From positions 1 to 5,980 of the forward strand of contig JAFYLX010000066.1 in the NCBI GenBank assembly GCA_017556895.1: a DNA stretch of 5,980 bases, given 5' to 3'. The position numbers and the translations under genes are program-made. The number at the start of each line of letters is the position of its first letter. Within the stretch, counting starts at the first letter, position 1. This DNA is from Bacillota bacterium (lineage in GTDB: Bacteria > Bacillota_A > Clostridia > Peptostreptococcales > Anaerovoracaceae). The notes beneath the pieces were generated by a model that was given only the letters and a program-made list of their open reading frames with translations, was not told where the DNA came from and searched no databases. Positions 1-5,980 of this stretch are shown here, piece by piece.

Positions 1-21
1 AAAATCATAAACCTGTTTCAT
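1..21 (-). CDS. Start of an unidentified downstream gene (truncated by window edge)
   Basis: Only seven codons are visible (MKQVYDF), beginning with the ATG at 21-19 and running off the left edge. The start is credible because an AAGGAAG ribosome binding site lies at 34-28, six bases upstream, in the 29-base gap after the uxaC stop. With that short gap and no convincing terminator, it is probably the next gene of the same operon. Seven residues do not identify a product. The N-terminus is reminiscent of small clostridial flavin-binding (pyridoxamine-phosphate-oxidase-like) proteins, but this is only an impression; a hexuronate-pathway enzyme, kinase or transporter would fit the context equally well. 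Confidence 0.6.
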
Positions 22-50: not shown

Positions 51-1439
51 TTAAATTTCGAATCCGAAATAGTTAACCGCGTTTCTCCAGCAAATGTCTT
101 CTACCATTTTGCCAAGGAATTCAATATCGGCTGGGTACTGACCGCTTTCTACTAGCTGCCCAATCTTATTGCATAAGATACGTCTAAAGTATTCGTGTCT
201 AGTAAAGGAAGTGAAACTTCTTGAGTCAGTAAGCATTCCTACTGAACCGGCAAGAGCGCCAGTTTCCATAAGCTGATCAATCTGAGCTTCGATGCCACGA
301 AGATGGTCAAGAAACCACCAAGCTGCGCCGTACTGAACCTTTGCGCCGTTTGATGCAAAGTTTAGAGCCATTGTTGCAAGCATCGTACTGTCAGCCGGAT
401 TTAGGTTGTATAAAATAGTCTTGGGAAGTGAACCCGCCCCTTCTAAATCACCTAAAAATGCACCTAACTGGAAAGGGTCAGTTGTAGCACCAACGCTGTC
501 TCCGCCTGCATCAGCACCGAAGTATTCTACAAGCTTTGGAGAATTGTTTCTGATAGGACCCATATGAAGCTGCATAGCAAGGTCTCTTTTTACATATTCC
601 GCCGCTAGGAACTTTAAAAGTTCTCCCTGGTAGATAGCGATTTCTTCCTCACAAAGAGATTCGCCTAAAAGGGCCTTTGCTACGATAGGTTCAGCATCCC
701 CAGAGGCATATCTGAATTTAATAAATCCGTGGTCTGTAACCTTGCAACCTGCGCTAGCAAAGAAGTCTAAGGCCTTCGCTAACGCTTCCTTAAGAGTTTC
801 CCAGTCAGTAATTTCGCCGTACTTAGCACCAAGCTGAGCTACTGCCGGCAAGAAGTTCGCCTGGTCGATGTGGAGAAATCTGTCAGGTCTAAAAGACGGA
901 AGCGTCTTAAACCCAATAGTTTCGTCCTCGGCAAGCTTTAGGTGCCACTCAAGAGTATCAGCAGGGTCATCAGTCGTGCAAAGAACCTTTGCCCCGATCT
1001 TATTTAGTAAGGAAACAGCATCAAAACCTTCTCCCTTTAGCATTTCGCTAGTCTTTTCCCAGATTTCATCACAAGTTGCGGCAGAAATCGGAGTATCGAT
1101 GCCGAAATATCTCTGAAGCTCTAGGTGAGCCCAAGTGTATACTGGGCTTCCGATTAAACGAGGCATAATTCTGGCGAATTCCGCGAATTTTTCGTAATCC
1201 GTTGTATCTCCAGTAACATACTTCTCGTCTACGCCGCTTGCTCTCATGCATCTCCACTTGTAATGGTCAGTCTCAAGCCAAAGTTGCGTCAAGTTTTCGT
1301 AACTTCTGCGCTCGAAGATTTCTTTCGCAGGCAAGTGGTTATGATAGTCTATAATAGGACAATCCTTTGCATATTTCTCAAAAAGGACTCTGCTAGTTTC
1401 TGTGGAAAGTAAAAAGTCCTTGTCCATAAATTTCTTCAT
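51..1439 (-). CDS. uxaC: Glucuronate isomerase UxaC
   Basis: This 462-residue protein is uronate isomerase, which interconverts D-glucuronate and D-fructuronate (and D-galacturonate and D-tagaturonate) in the cytoplasm, the first step of hexuronate catabolism. It belongs to the amidohydrolase-superfamily TIM barrels and is close to the usual length of about 470. Visible family signatures are the N-terminal metal-binding DYHNHL (H33, H35), LWLETDHYKWRCMR (53-66), CTTDDPAD (154-161), PSFRPD (181-186), QLHMGPIRNNS (290-300), GAAWWFLDHLRG (371-382) and GMLTDSRSFTSFTRHEYF (401-418). The gene starts one base after the stop of the LarA-like gene, so the two are probably translationally coupled. ATG at 1439 is preferred over the Met at codon 5 because of the AAGGAG ten bases upstream. 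The length is intact with no frameshift. The identity is very secure; substrate preference (glucuronate versus galacturonate) is inferred from the adjacent mannonate oxidoreductase. Confidence 0.97.
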   Translation of the reverse strand: MKKFMDKDFLLSTETSRVLFEKYAKDCPIIDYHNHLPAKEIFERRSYENLTQLWLETDHYKWRCMRASGVDEKYVTGDTTDYEKFAEFARIMPRLIGSPVYTWAHLELQRYFGIDTPISAATCDEIWEKTSEMLKGEGFDAVSLLNKIGAKVLCTTDDPADTLEWHLKLAEDETIGFKTLPSFRPDRFLHIDQANFLPAVAQLGAKYGEITDWETLKEALAKALDFFASAGCKVTDHGFIKFRYASGDAEPIVAKALLGESLCEEEIAIYQGELLKFLAAEYVKRDLAMQLHMGPIRNNSPKLVEYFGADAGGDSVGATTDPFQLGAFLGDLEGAGSLPKTILYNLNPADSTMLATMALNFASNGAKVQYGAAWWFLDHLRGIEAQIDQLMETGALAGSVGMLTDSRSFTSFTRHEYFRRILCNKIGQLVESGQYPADIEFLGKMVEDICWRNAVNYFGFEI

Positions 1440-1440
1440 C

Positions 1441-2715
1441 TTAGAATTTCTCCTTATTGATCCATAATCCTAAAGCCGGGTTAGGAATGAAGTAGATTTC
1501 TTCACCGTCTGGCATTGTGTTGTATCCATACTGAAGGGTTTCAGGATTGTAACGCTTGATAGTCTCATCGTAGTCCACTGCCGCAAATCCCACACCTTCA
1601 ACTTCCTCTTTAGTGATGTTTTTAACCGCGTAAGTAATCTTAAATCTATCATCGGACGAACCATGGATTAAGTGTGCCGCAGCACCCATGTTGTCTCTTA
1701 AATCCTGATTTTCAGGCTTTTCAAACTCTTCGAGAGTCTTGATTCTGCCTCTGTATCCGTACTTTCTGATAAGCAGGTCTACCTGATCGTCTTCACCAAA
1801 TCTTTCGATTCCCGGAGCAAGAACAAGTAGTTCACCGCCGTCTGCGATAGCCATTCTAGTTCTGTAAACAGACTTGTTACCTAGCCATGTTGACTTGAAT
1901 TCAGCTGGATCAAGATAAACAACACACTTCTTGATACCCGTTTCCACGAAGTCTATGTTCTTCTCCTGGGCAAGTTCAATAGCAGCCTCAAGAGCATTTC
2001 TCTTGTCACCGATGAACAGTCCGTGAGTGTTGATAACACCGCCCGGAGCCGTACATACAGTTAAAACGAAGAGAATAGGTCTTTCATTTAGGCAGTGTTC
2101 CATACCATAGTCGAATACCTTACGAACCGGAGTATGGTCCTTACCCATCATTCTTTCCATACCATAAACAGCACCAACCATGTGGCTCTTGTTAATCATG
2201 TCGCTTCCGCCAACCCCTACGAAAAGGTTTTTAGCATGGTTAGCCATACCGATAACTTCGTGTGGCACAACCTGTCCGATGGAAAGGATAAGGTCGTACT
2301 TTTTGTCCATTACAAGACGGTTGATTTCAACGCTTACCGGGTCTTTCCAAAGACCTTCTGTAATTTCTTCAAGGTACTCTGCAGGAACCTCGCCAATCTT
2401 CATTACATCAGTTCTCCAGTTGTGCGGAATGAACTTATCATAAGGAATATCACCAAACATCACGTCGATTTCTTCTTCCGTCACAGGCACGTGAGTACCG
2501 AGAGCCGGCAGGATATCAACCTTCACTCCCTTTTCTGTAAGTGCATGATAATAGACGTTAGTGATGAATCCAGCATTGGAATGGAATCTTGTAAAGTCAG
2601 GCGGAATAATTAAAACATTCTTTAATTCTCTGCCTTCAAGGCTCTTAAGAAGTGCCTCTTTCATTTCCTCGTGGCCGAGTCCGTTGCCACTTTTATCGTA
2701 AATAAAATGTTCCAT
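1441..2715 (-). CDS. LarA-superfamily nickel-dependent hydroxyacid racemase/epimerase (candidate mannonate/gluconate 2-epimerase)
   Basis: This 424-residue protein matches lactate racemase LarA (DUF2088 N-terminal domain plus C-terminal domain), a cytoplasmic enzyme using a nickel-pincer nucleotide bound covalently to lysine. Relative to L. plantarum LarA as I recall its numbering (H174, K184, H200), H152, K162 and H178 fall at identical spacings: proton-transfer histidine, cofactor lysine and nickel ligand. The DFTR motif (D40, R43) and GTH (H75) match the D72/R75 and H108 regions. The C-terminal substrate region reads VYRTRM (283-288), where LarA is thought to have a Y-Q-x-x-K pattern, so the substrate is probably not lactate. 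It lies between an SDR mannonate oxidoreductase and uxaC, where a mannonate dehydratase would be expected. C2 epimerisation of D-mannonate to D-gluconate is my inference; the family is known to include hydroxyacid racemases and a reported D-gluconate 2-epimerase. AAGGAG at 2727-2722, six bases upstream, fixes the start. No larB, larC or larE is visible. Confidence 0.88.
   Translation of the reverse strand: MEHFIYDKSGNGLGHEEMKEALLKSLEGRELKNVLIIPPDFTRFHSNAGFITNVYYHALTEKGVKVDILPALGTHVPVTEEEIDVMFGDIPYDKFIPHNWRTDVMKIGEVPAEYLEEITEGLWKDPVSVEINRLVMDKKYDLILSIGQVVPHEVIGMANHAKNLFVGVGGSDMINKSHMVGAVYGMERMMGKDHTPVRKVFDYGMEHCLNERPILFVLTVCTAPGGVINTHGLFIGDKRNALEAAIELAQEKNIDFVETGIKKCVVYLDPAEFKSTWLGNKSVYRTRMAIADGGELLVLAPGIERFGEDDQVDLLIRKYGYRGRIKTLEEFEKPENQDLRDNMGAAAHLIHGSSDDRFKITYAVKNITKEEVEGVGFAAVDYDETIKRYNPETLQYGYNTMPDGEEIYFIPNPALGLWINKEKF
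1450..1455 (-). promoter_or_regulatory. Ribosome binding site of uxaC inside the end of the LarA-like gene
   Basis: AAGGAG on the minus strand lies within the last codons of the upstream gene, ten bases before the uxaC ATG at 1439. It supports that start over the in-frame ATG four codons later, which would be 22 bases away, and it makes translational coupling plausible. Confidence 0.75.
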
Positions 2716-2748
2716 TTTAATCTCCTTTTTGGGCCAAATACCGCCAAA

Positions 2749-3597
2749 CTAAACTCCGCTGTATGCTGAGAAGCCGCCGTCTACAGGAATTACGATACCT
2801 GTAACGAATGATGCAGCCTTGTCGTCAACTAGGAATAATAGGGCGCCAAGTAATTCTTCAGGCTTTCCGAATCTTCCCATCGGAGTAGCGGATAAAATCT
2901 TGCCTGTTCTGGCAGTTGGGCTGCCGTCTTCATTCCAAAGAAGCTTCTTGTTCTGTTCAGTTGAGAAGAAGCCTGGAGCGATTGCATTTACTCTGATTCC
3001 AGTCTTGCTGAAGTGAACCGCAAGCCACTGTGTAAAGTTGGAGATAGCCGCCTTTGCACCTGAGTATGCAGGGATCTTAGTTAGTGGTGTATAAGCGTTC
3101 ATTGAGCTTACGTTTAAGATATTGCAACCTTCTCTTCCAATCATATCCTTAGCAAAAGCCTGTGTTGGGATAAGAGTACCGGAGAAGTTTAAATTAAATA
3201 CGTATTCCACGTCTTCTGATGACATATCGAAGAAAGTCTTAGTATCTTCGTCTAAGTCGCCAGCTTCAAAATATTCTTTATCAGTAGTCGCTCTAGGGTT
3301 GGTGCCGCCTGCACCATTGATTAGGATATCGCACTTGCCAAGTCTCGCAAGAACTTCTTCGTGAGCCTTGTTTACGCTTTCTGCATTAGTAACGTCTACG
3401 GATACTGCGATTGCTTCGCCGCCCATAGCCTTGATTTCTTCTGCAACAGCCTCAGCCTTTGATAGAGTTCTGCCAAGGATAGCAACCTTAGCGCCGCAAA
3501 GTGCAAGAGCCTTCGCGAATTCCTTGCAAAGCACACCGGCACCGCCTGTGACTACTGCAACTTTTCCTTCTAAATTTGGTTTATAACATAGTTCCAT
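2749..3597 (-). CDS. SDR-family oxidoreductase, probable D-mannonate oxidoreductase (fructuronate reductase, UxuB-like)
   Basis: This 282-residue classical short-chain dehydrogenase probably reduces D-fructuronate to D-mannonate with NAD(P)H. The N-terminal Rossmann fold carries VTGGAGVLC (16-24), a variant of TGxxxGxG in which the third glycine is Cys24. LINGAG (92-97) stands in for NNAG. The catalytic set is N137, S165, Y178 and K182 (AYSGAK), with the usual 13-residue Ser-Tyr spacing. VNAIAPGFF (203-211) and a C-terminal TGIVIPVDGGFSAY segment (266-279) complete the family pattern. The roughly 15-residue stretch around 106-122, rich in acidic residues, is an insertion relative to the shortest SDRs. 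A strong GGAGG at 3610-3606, eight bases upstream, supports the ATG. The gene is 33 bases before the LarA-like gene. Family assignment is very secure; substrate is inferred from uxaC and from SDR-type UxuB enzymes in Gram-positive bacteria. A gluconate 5-dehydrogenase-like role is the main alternative. Confidence 0.87.
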   Translation of the reverse strand: MELCYKPNLEGKVAVVTGGAGVLCKEFAKALALCGAKVAILGRTLSKAEAVAEEIKAMGGEAIAVSVDVTNAESVNKAHEEVLARLGKCDILINGAGGTNPRATTDKEYFEAGDLDEDTKTFFDMSSEDVEYVFNLNFSGTLIPTQAFAKDMIGREGCNILNVSSMNAYTPLTKIPAYSGAKAAISNFTQWLAVHFSKTGIRVNAIAPGFFSTEQNKKLLWNEDGSPTARTGKILSATPMGRFGKPEELLGALLFLVDDKAASFVTGIVIPVDGGFSAYSGV

Positions 3598-3642
3598 TCT
3601 AATTTCCTCCAGAATGATTTAGTATTCATCCTCTACTTATAG

Positions 3643-3832
3643 ATTTCTGATATTTTTCACTAGTCCTCGTCACTGGAAACAGGCGCAATACGCAGTTTTA
3701 TTCGCAGAGAATCTGACAAACTCGCCTTTTTAGCTTTTAATCACTCATACAGTGTCAGATTCTAACTGCTCATATGCACTGCTTAATTGGCCGTTTCATC
3801 AGTTCCTGCGAAATCGTTCAAAATATCATAAT
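3643..3832 (+). repeat. Palindromic repeat element, copy A (diverged)
   Basis: This element of about 190 bp is the more decayed of two related copies. Its ends form an imperfect inverted repeat, with TGATATTTT at 3648-3656 matched by AAAATATCA at 3820-3828, and ATT just outside on both sides. Its core contains a perfect 11-bp inverted repeat, AGAATCTGACA (3708-3718) and TGTCAGATTCT (3753-3763), flanked by GCAG/CTGC. Read on the plus strand it aligns with copy B read on the minus strand: 35 of 42 bases match between 3686-3727 and 4012-3971, and shared blocks GTCCTCG (3663-3669) and CTTAATTG (3782-3789) occur in the same order. It has no coding potential. A MITE-like or REP-like dispersed element is the best guess; a structured leader RNA of the downstream operon is the alternative. 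Confidence 0.7.
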
Positions 3833-3855
3833 CGATAAGTTTTATGAATAATCAA
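3825..3855 (-). promoter_or_regulatory. Candidate promoter for the SDR-larA-uxaC operon
   Basis: On the minus strand TTGATT (3855-3850) and TATGAT (3830-3825) resemble sigma-70-type -35 and -10 boxes, with a 19-base spacer that is longer than ideal. If used, transcription would begin near 3818 and the leader would include most of repeat element A. The -35 box would lie inside the left copy of the 10-bp direct repeat. The region is AT-rich and such matches arise by chance, so this is weak. Confidence 0.22.
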
Positions 3856-3858
3856 ATA
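3849..3858. repeat. Left copy of a 10-bp direct repeat flanking element B
   Basis: TAATCAAATA here is identical to 4061-4070. The pair brackets copy B and may be a target-site duplication. On this left side about 17 AT-rich bases separate the repeat from the 13-bp terminal inverted repeat, whereas on the right the gap is only four bases, so the true element end is uncertain. Confidence 0.5.
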
Positions 3859-3875
3859 TTTTTTATTTAATTACA

Positions 3876-4056
3876 ATTTTGCGACTTTGAGCTTTTCCGC
3901 AAGACATGGCTACAACAGTCAATTAAGCGGCGAATGTGAGCAGCATAGAGTCTGTCATTGTTTAAGCCGTAGGCGAGTTTGGCAGACTCTCTGCGAACAG
4001 AGTCGCGTATTGTTACTGTTGTCCATCGTCGAGGACCTTGCGAAAAGTCGCAAAAT
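3876..4056 (-). repeat. Palindromic MITE-like repeat element, copy B
   Basis: This 181-bp element is an imperfect palindrome centred near 3966. Its ends are a perfect 13-bp inverted repeat, ATTTTGCGACTTT at 3876-3888 and its complement at 4044-4056. Inner matching arms include ACAACAGT at 3912-3919 versus the complement around 4014-4021, and a core stem AGAGTCTG (3947-3954) with CAGACTCT (3983-3990), extended by GCAG/CTGC. The loop contains GCCGTAGGC (3966-3974). It is oriented opposite to copy A. The 10-bp direct repeats just outside suggest insertion by a transposase-like activity, making it MITE-like; no transposase is present. Open reading frames crossing it look spurious. Whether it is multi-copy in the genome cannot be judged here. 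Confidence 0.75.
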
Positions 4057-4060
4057 GTCG

Positions 4061-4070
4061 TAATCAAATA
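4061..4070. repeat. Right copy of a 10-bp direct repeat, containing the HAD gene stop codon
   Basis: TAATCAAATA is identical to 3849-3858. On the minus strand it reads through the last codons and TGA stop (4066-4064) of the HAD phosphatase gene. If the repeat is a target-site duplication, the element inserted at the very end of that gene and the duplication preserved its stop codon. Confidence 0.5.
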
Positions 4071-4891
4071 ATACTTGTTTTAAGAACGAAGCGTTCAATT
4101 GCCTTCGCCACCCCATCTTCGTCGCAGTGACCAGTCACCCAGTCGGCCGCATCTAGGGCCTCTTTGCATCCATTTGCCATCGCCACGCCTATGCCTGCTG
4201 TTTCTAGCATTGAAATATCATTTAAACCGTCTCCCATAGCGATCGTGTGATCTTTATCAACGCCTAGGTAATCTGCAAGGGCTGTAAGGGCAAGACCCTT
4301 TGTCGCATCCTTTTGATTGATTTCGATGTTCTGCGGTGATGAGCTAGATACCGCGATATTCTCAAAAACTCTAGGAAGTTTCTCTAACAATTCCAGGCGC
4401 AGATTCGCGTCTTTCGTAAAGAACTGAATCTTTTGGACATCTTCTCCTCGATTTTCCAAGAATTCTTTTAGTTCAGGAACTGGTTTTCTTAGATCATAGA
4501 ACATCTTCCTGATACGTGGATTTTCAACGATCTCATCTACCTTTGCCTTCAATGCTTCTGTCATAAAGGCATCATTATTCATATAACAATCGTAGATGAC
4601 AGGCAGCTCATCAAGATACTTCATTATATCGATGGCCTGCTTGTATGGCATTTCCGCCGAATAAATTCCCTCTACATATGCTCCGTTGATAGTTATGGCA
4701 TAATGGACAAAAGGCAGCTCCCGGATAAAATCCGGCATGCCGCCATAGAATCGTCCTGTCGTAGGAACAATCTCCCAGCCCGCCTCAGCCGCTCTTTCTA
4801 GAGCTTCTCGGTTTCCTGCACTTAATTCCTTCTTTGAATTAAGAAGAGTGCCGTCTAGGTCTAGGGCGATTATCCCTTTAGGTTTATGCAT
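4064..4891 (-). CDS. Cof-type HAD-superfamily (class IIB) phosphatase
   Basis: This 275-residue protein is a soluble Cof/YidA-type haloacid-dehalogenase phosphatase, a family that hydrolyses sugar phosphates and similar metabolites with Mg2+. Motif I is DLDGTLL with nucleophile D11 and acid D13; motif II is the threonine in PTTGR (43-47); motif III is K198 (DATKG); motif IV is GDGLND with D221 and D225. The C2-type cap lies between motifs II and III (about 75-190). The ATG at 4891 is chosen because DxDGT normally lies about ten residues from the N-terminus; the longer in-frame start at 4999 would add 36 residues read wholly out of frame within gnd. The start overlaps the gnd stop by 8 bases, with only a weak GCAGG upstream, so translation is probably coupled to gnd. 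Substrate is unknown; a phosphosugar of the pentose phosphate or gluconate route is only a contextual guess. Confidence 0.93.
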
Positions 4892-5980
4892 TGTATGTGC
4901 CTGCAGATGTGTTACCACCGTGGCCTGTCCAGTTAGTGTGGAACACCTGTCCGCGAGGCTGATCAATTCTTTCGTAAGTGTGAGCACCGAAGTAGTCACG
5001 CTGTGCCTGTAATAGGTTGGCAGGTAAGCATTCTGTTGTATATCCGTCGAAGTAGTTTAGAGCGGATGAGAATGCAGGCATTGGAATTCCAGCCTTTACA
5101 GCATATGCTACAACTTCTCTCCATGCAGGAACTAAAGTCTTGATAGTTTCTGCGAAATATTCGTCAAGAAGCAGATTTTCAAGTTCAGGGTTCTTGTCGT
5201 ATGCTTCTTTGATCTTTCCAAGGAATACGCTACGGATGATGCAGCCGCCTCTCCACATAAGAGCGATACCGCCGTAGTTTAAGTTCCATCCGTTAGTTTC
5301 AGCAGCTGTTCTCATTAGAGTATAGCCCTGAGCGTAGGAAATAATCTTGCTGGCATATAGAGCCTTTCTGATAGCTTCGATGAATGCTTCTCTGTCACCT
5401 TCGAAAGCAGGGATTTCCTTAGGGAAAACCTTGGAAGCTACAACTCTCTGGTCCTTCATTGCGGAAAGACATCTAGCGAATACTGCTTCACCGATTAAAG
5501 TTAAAGGCACGCCTTCGTCTAACGCACTGATTGCAGTCCACTTACCAGTACCCTTCTGGCCAGCTGTATCTAAAATATAGTTAACTGTTGTTTCACCATT
5601 TTCATCCTTGTAACCTAGGATATCTCTAGTGATTTCGATTAAATAGCTGTCTAGCTCTGTTTCGTTCCATGCTGCAAATACTTCGTGCATTTCTTCTGGA
5701 GTCATGCCAAGGCCGTCTCTCATTAGCTGGTAAGCTTCGCAAATTAACTGCATGTCGCCGTATTCGATACCGTTATGTACCATCTTTACGAAATGACCTG
5801 CACCGTTTTCGCCAACCCAGTCACAACAAGCCTGTCCGTCTTCTACCTTTGCACAGATAGCCTGGAAAATCGGCTTAACATATTCCCATGCAGCATAGGA
5901 TCCGCCCGGCATCATGGAAGGACCGTTAAGAGCGCCTTCTTCGCCGCCGGATACGCCACAACCTACATATAATAAGCCTT
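4884..5980 (-). CDS. gnd: 6-phosphogluconate dehydrogenase, decarboxylating (5' end outside window)
   Basis: This enzyme oxidises and decarboxylates 6-phosphogluconate to ribulose 5-phosphate with reduction of NAD(P)+, in the cytoplasm, normally as a homodimer. The reading frame is open to the right edge, giving 364 residues; the N-terminal Rossmann domain, roughly 105-115 residues, is missing. The visible part begins [16 protein letters not shown], followed by [10 protein letters not shown], the substrate-binding signature. [16 protein letters not shown] supplies the catalytic lysine (K183 in E. coli numbering, at about 5786-5784) and glutamate seven residues later. [14 protein letters not shown] and WRGGCIIRS are further family blocks, and the C-terminus has AHTYERID followed by QVFHTNW and a Gly/Thr-rich tail. 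The internal Met at 5915 is not the start. The stop overlaps the HAD gene start. Identity is very secure; NAD versus NADP preference cannot be judged without the N-terminus. Confidence 0.97.

Follow-up and report, generated by a model that had tools for sequence, protein, structure and literature searches.

Glucuronate is a common product of xylan, drug glucuronides and host glucuronides, and the locus described here raises the question of how it is degraded when the genes for its conversion to mannonate adjoin a gene for a LarA homologue instead of one for the mannonate dehydratase UxuA. The stretch analyzed (the window) comprises 5,980 nucleotides of contig JAFYLX010000066.1 from a Bacillota bacterium of the Anaerovoracaceae (assembly GCA_017556895.1). 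It encodes, on the minus strand, a short-chain dehydrogenase/reductase (SDR) type D-mannonate oxidoreductase, i.e., fructuronate reductase (2749..3597), the LarA homologue (1441..2715) and the glucuronate/galacturonate isomerase UxaC (51..1439). A sequence-only reading had described these genes as a unit with gaps of 33 and 1 base, which our coordinates match base for base, and had proposed that a LarA-type epimerase opens a bypass from glucuronate to gluconate. Comparative sequence evidence, namely gene co-occurrence, the presence of gnd and the fusion of a gluconokinase to a LarA homologue of the same group, supports such a bypass, and we consider it quite probable that the operon degrades D-glucuronate via gluconate, circumventing 2-keto-3-deoxygluconate (KDG). 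The most telling neighbor, which the earlier reading left unused, lies inside the window: gnd (4884..5978, minus strand, 5' end outside the window), which encodes a decarboxylating 6-phosphogluconate dehydrogenase.

The five window proteins were scanned against NCBIfam, with its curated cut-offs, and Pfam, taking for each open reading frame (ORF) the longest possible start, which may differ from the true one. The LarA homologue passes NF052594 ('NPN_18_hexonate', nickel-dependent putative hexonate epimerase) with 630.2 bits (cut-off 500) and thus belongs to LarAH group 18 (hereinafter LarA18). An identity as lactate or malate racemase was rejected, with 25.8 of 460 bits for NF033504 and 53.3 of 500 for NF052593. 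UxaC is identified by NF002794 (529.1 bits, cut-off 387), Pfam UxaC (570 bits) and the glucuronate isomerase PDB 3iac (433 bits), the SDR by NF006132 (445.4 bits, cut-off 281), and Gnd by TIGR00873 (539.5 bits, cut-off 426.7, for the partial protein scored on 4884-5915). None of the five scanned proteins matched any UxuA model, which bears out the absence of UxuA from the window noted earlier.

Alignment with 4NAR equates LarA residues D72, R75, H108, H174, K184, H200 and K298, for which catalytic and nickel-pincer nucleotide (NPN) contact roles are described (PMC7583248), with D40, R43, H75, H152, K162, H178 and K281 of the window protein; all seven are invariant in 80 of 80 LarA18 proteins. 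The signature of LarAH groups 18-20, a loop EV/S and a tryptophan in alpha-11 (PMC7583248), is present as E153, V154 and W277 and is likewise conserved in 80 of 80. The predicted fold is nearest to that of GntE2 (4NAR), an assayed D-gluconate 2-epimerase, which shares with the window protein the NPN-contact and catalytic residues and the glutamate at the first loop position but is only 25% identical over the structural alignment. GntE2 and two other assayed members of the LarA superfamily, GntE1 and LarAH15, accept free D-mannonate (PMC7583248, PMC11770544). For group 18 itself, the 2020 paper named merely 'a hexonate' as a hypothetical substrate (PMC7583248), and no assay of a group-18 protein was found in a literature search with scant coverage of subscription journals. 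We predict that the LarA18 protein is a D-mannonate/D-gluconate 2-epimerase.

From the genes, gene order, conservation and co-occurrence observed here, we infer the reactions, the substrate of the kinase and the presence of the cofactor. UxaC would convert D-glucuronate to fructuronate, with galacturonate probably also entering where a tagaturonate epimerase is present, and the SDR would reduce fructuronate to D-mannonate. LarA18 would invert C2 of D-mannonate to yield D-gluconate, with the hydride carried by the NPN; a PfkB-type kinase, seen in relatives upstream of gnd and expected outside the window, would phosphorylate gluconate, and Gnd would decarboxylate the resulting 6-phosphogluconate to ribulose-5-phosphate, which would enter the pentose-phosphate pathway. 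Enzymes of the Gnd family yield NADPH, and the reductant used by the SDR would be recovered at this step.

The gluconate route is known in outline from Thermotoga maritima, so the route proposed for the window is a variant rather than a new pathway, with another epimerase group, another kinase and an SDR reductase. The UxaR operon of T. maritima (gnd-uxaRED-gntEK) likewise combines gnd, a fructuronate reductase, a LarA-type D-gluconate 2-epimerase (GntE2) and a gluconokinase, and mannonate is routed there towards 6-phosphogluconate (PMC3750489, PMC7583248). It differs in that GntE2 belongs to group 20 rather than 18, the window has an SDR reductase and the kinase in the relatives of the window is an unnamed PfkB-type protein; furthermore, T. 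maritima also has kdgA-kdgK-uxuB-uxuA. The canonical UxaC-UxuB-UxuA-KdgK-KdgA route has only the first two steps in common with that of the window. The galacturonate-phosphoketolase route of Lactobacillus suebicus also joins mannonate to 6-phosphogluconate and is redox-neutral to ribulose-5-phosphate, but the activities there are those of a mannonate kinase and a 6-phosphomannonate epimerase, for which the genes are unknown (PMC6978723). By analogy, the PfkB-type kinase could act first and produce 6-phosphomannonate, which LarA18 would epimerize to 6-phosphogluconate; the gene order does not tell the two sequences of steps apart, and a gluconate-kinase-type activity in the L. suebicus work was able to take mannonate. 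The use of free D-mannonate by the three assayed epimerases and the fusion or pairing of LarA18 with a GntK/IdnK-type gluconokinase in relatives argue against phosphorylation of mannonate ahead of epimerization, an order that we regard as rather unlikely.

The neighborhoods of LarA18 were compared in loci (L handles; genomes have G handles) representing the best 80 of 577 confirmed relatives in a GTDB species collection, many of them close kin and some ending inside the operon, along with two extra loci from plasmids (L001 and L002); two Embleya plasmid hits with 26% identity were left out. The tally of 81 loci consists of 78 of the 80, L001, L002 and the window; L060, which does show Gnd, SDR and UxaC matches, and L075 were dropped because LarA was not kept by the ORF caller. 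Gnd is the commonest partner of LarA18, encoded in the same run in 57 loci, followed by the PfkB-type kinase (34), SDR (32), UxaC (23), HAD phosphatase (21), tagaturonate epimerase (11) and E. coli-type UxuB (9); UxuA is found in the same run in a single locus and within 8 kb in three. The recurrence of the same genes beside LarA18 in many of these loci argues that the grouping is not due to chance. The kinase gene is directly followed by gnd in 33 loci, and where 6 kb or more of upstream sequence is available (49 loci), Gnd is encoded in 38 and the kinase in 33. In transcription order, the window contains gnd, the gene for a Cof-type HAD phosphatase, a gap of 466 bases, SDR, LarA18, UxaC and the start of the next gene, so that the SDR-LarA-UxaC trio concludes a longer series of genes on the same strand. 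Given that the near relatives L003, L004, L089, L090 and L091 show the order kinase-gnd-HAD-SDR-LarA-UxaC (in L091, HAD and SDR are separated by two additional small ORFs), the kinase gene is expected just outside the window, upstream of gnd.

The link to gluconate is most direct in Saccharobesus litoralis, where residues 3-157 of the product of a single 590-codon gene (L002, 9419-11188) are a GntK-type gluconokinase and residues 171-581 are LarA18; LarB, tagaturonate epimerase, Gnd and UxaC are encoded nearby. The only name of this gene in the plasmid gene table is gluconokinase, and the main text of a paper on the same strain under its earlier name (PMC7953866) contains neither 'fusion' nor 'gntK'. 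In Catenovulum adriaticum, gntK, LarA18, larC, larE and larB are consecutive. Together, the fusion and the gnd gene of the window point to gluconate as the probable product of the epimerase.

The relationship between LarA18 and UxuA was surveyed in 297 genomes of the taxonomic order of G001, the genome that contains the nearest relative of the window locus (L003). LarA18 exceeded the cut-off in seven of these genomes, UxaC in 51 and UxuA in 52. UxaC is encoded in all seven LarA18 carriers compared to 44 of the 290 other genomes (p=3.1e-6), and among the UxaC-positive genomes, UxuA is found in two of the seven with LarA18 compared to 43 of the 44 without it (p=5.2e-5); with only seven LarA18 genomes and non-independent kin, these p-values are indicative. 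The co-occurrence with uxaC and the anti-correlation with uxuA, which the sequence-only reading had proposed to survey, are thus both observed. In G247, the sole genome with UxaC that lacks both LarA18 and UxuA, an altronate/galactarate-dehydratase-type gene is located one gene away from uxaC, which may explain the exception. Seven genomes have the gene order of the window (G001-G004, G229, G301 and G318), comprising those of the four closest loci and the carriers in the order sample that show gnd-(HAD)-SDR-LarA-UxaC (in L005, HAD was not called); neither UxuA nor 2-keto-3-deoxy-6-phosphogluconate (KDPG) aldolase was detected in any of the seven. Both were also undetected in G008, with the order of the window (L010), and in G011 and G040, where a single run encodes the same enzymes (L013 and L042, respectively); in G009 (L011), uxuA was undetected and KDPG aldolase is present. 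Because uxuA and KDPG aldolase were not detected, mannonate in the clade of the window apparently has no outlet other than the LarA18 route.

Several observations weigh against a strict replacement of UxuA. Replacement by LarA is not universal: uxuA exceeds the cut-off in 20 of the 80 genomes of the loci (11/40 and 9/40), and KDPG aldolase does so in 30 of the 47 searched. In L007, which encodes a LarA that is 81% identical, uxuA, uxuB, a KDG-type kinase gene and eda precede kinase-gnd-HAD-LarA18 in the same run, and L033 encodes the enzymes of the window in a single run but belongs to a genome, G031, that also has uxuA and KDPG aldolase. Thus, some LarA18 carriers keep both routes. In the single-contig chromosomes of G085 and G094 (L088 and L087, respectively), uxuA lies within about 4 kb of a divergent LarA18; the genes for the SDR and a GntU-like transporter separate the two, and neither Gnd nor the kinase was called in the 20 kb analyzed. 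These two loci and the unspecified hexonate of the 2020 paper (PMC7583248) would fit a LarA18 whose substrate is a different hexonate or which works in reverse, supplying UxuA with mannonate from gluconate. Where Gnd is encoded in the operon and neither uxuA nor KDPG aldolase was detected, as in the seven genomes, the reverse direction would serve no purpose, and no other outlet is known for the mannonate that the SDR would form. This makes either possibility very improbable for the window, where we continue to favor conversion of mannonate to gluconate. As a separate observation, the divergent LarA18 copy of G085 has an internal stop codon.

The remaining difficulty concerns the cofactor. A search of 85 LarA18 genomes for LarC (PF01969) and LarE (TIGR00268) applied the cut-off for LarE to the first 40 genomes and a threshold of E 1e-30 to the remaining 45; a partial 148-bit LarE match in G005 (cut-off 150) was counted as present. 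Both proteins were undetected in 42 of the 85 carriers, and both in Peloplasma aerotolerans M4Ah (G348); LarB was not searched for. The sequence-only reading had held that a genome without larBCE would speak against its proposal, and for LarC and LarE this is the case in five of the seven window-order genomes (G001, G002, G003, G229 and G301), whereas both are present in G004 (LarC partial) and G318. A RecA match was obtained for 37 of the 42 carriers without both proteins and for 36 of 38 that have one or both of them (p=0.44; the comparison took 38 of 43 such carriers, leaving out G005, G369, G371, G373 and G375). Given that RecA is found about equally in both groups, we rejected mere loss from draft genomes; incompleteness alone does not explain the missing LarC and LarE. 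This shortfall cuts against full confidence in the NPN mechanism for the clade of the window, where LarA18 might lack the cofactor and be inactive or catalyze different chemistry. The seven invariant residues and the recurrence of the gene set across phyla make this highly improbable because an inactive protein would drift; we still favor an active, NPN-dependent epimerase. Auxotrophy for the nickel-pincer cofactor or another route of its synthesis is possible in the carriers without LarC and LarE. Genomes with larB, larE and larC but without larA have been reported (PMC11796402), and a limited literature search found no report of the reverse case, larA without larBCE.

The gnd-linked kinase belongs to the PfkB superfamily (PF00294, 66 bits for the L074 protein, gathering cut-off 25.8), and its GGGD motif is invariant in 22 of 22 members. 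The L003 kinase (5694-6773) is below every KDG-kinase cut-off, with 23 bits for NF052444 (400), 86 for NF041332 (440) and 169 for NF041633 (700), and so is that of L074, the comparison covering these two of the 22 members. In the kinase tree, for which support values are absent, the gnd-linked kinases form a clade apart from the KDG-type kinases of the same loci; the fold is nonetheless nearest to that of a KDG kinase. The identity as a plain KDG kinase was rejected given that an additional KDG-type kinase or a fusion of aldolase and kinase is encoded in the same run in L007 and L066 and that the two members compared passed no KDG model. A literature search with scant coverage of subscription journals found no report of a PfkB-type gluconokinase. 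L093 (5949-10264; G299) is a second setting for the family, with the kinase near Gnd, an amidohydrolase in between, and neither LarA18 nor UxaC in the genome. A distant relative of the kinase (223 bits) is encoded in G247.

The present analysis suggests a likely reaction for LarAH group 18, still a 'putative hexonate epimerase' in NCBI nomenclature and no more than a hypothesis in the 2020 paper, and it offers an explanation for glucuronate use by gut and rumen bacteria that carry uxaC and lack uxuA. It also predicts that the kinase, simply 'sugar kinase' in the few database entries that name it, represents a new family of gluconokinases. If the proposed route is correct, glucuronate use would be nickel-dependent in carriers of the LarA18 operon, and the missing LarC and LarE pose a testable question, namely, the source of the nickel-pincer cofactor. 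More tentatively, the whole KDG branch might be replaced by the group-18 epimerase and a new family of PfkB-type gluconate (or mannonate) 6-kinases in a form of uronate breakdown that is widespread in the gut and rumen, with roughly half of its carriers having lost the NPN synthesis genes and thus relying on cofactor from neighbors or on unknown enzymes.

All five window genes are on the minus strand, and the start codons of the SDR, LarA18 and UxaC genes are each preceded by a GGAG-type ribosome-binding stretch. The Cof-type HAD phosphatase (4064..4891, TIGR00099, 165.7 bits, cut-off 137, scored from an upstream GTG at 4999) has an ATG at 4891, from which its gene overlaps the end of gnd (4884) by 8 bases. 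Downstream of UxaC, a further minus-strand gene (1..21, MKQVYDF...) starts with an ATG at 21 behind AAGGAAG and is cut by the window end. An Rfam search of the window matched no family. Most of the HAD-SDR gap (3654-4046) is one long imperfect palindrome, with arms at 3678-3727 and 3971-4020 that are 80% complementary; folded as DNA, the minus strand at 3640-4070 reaches -84.7 kcal/mol (z -7.6). BLAST of the palindrome against the loci collected by then gave nothing at E 0.001, and the gap is much shorter in L003 and L004; the palindrome looks like an insert of the miniature inverted-repeat transposable element type. At the same position in L091 (3599-4475), one of the two extra ORFs encodes a nucleotidyltransferase and a helix-turn-helix domain, resembling part of an MNT-type toxin-antitoxin system, and L056 likewise has two small ORFs there.
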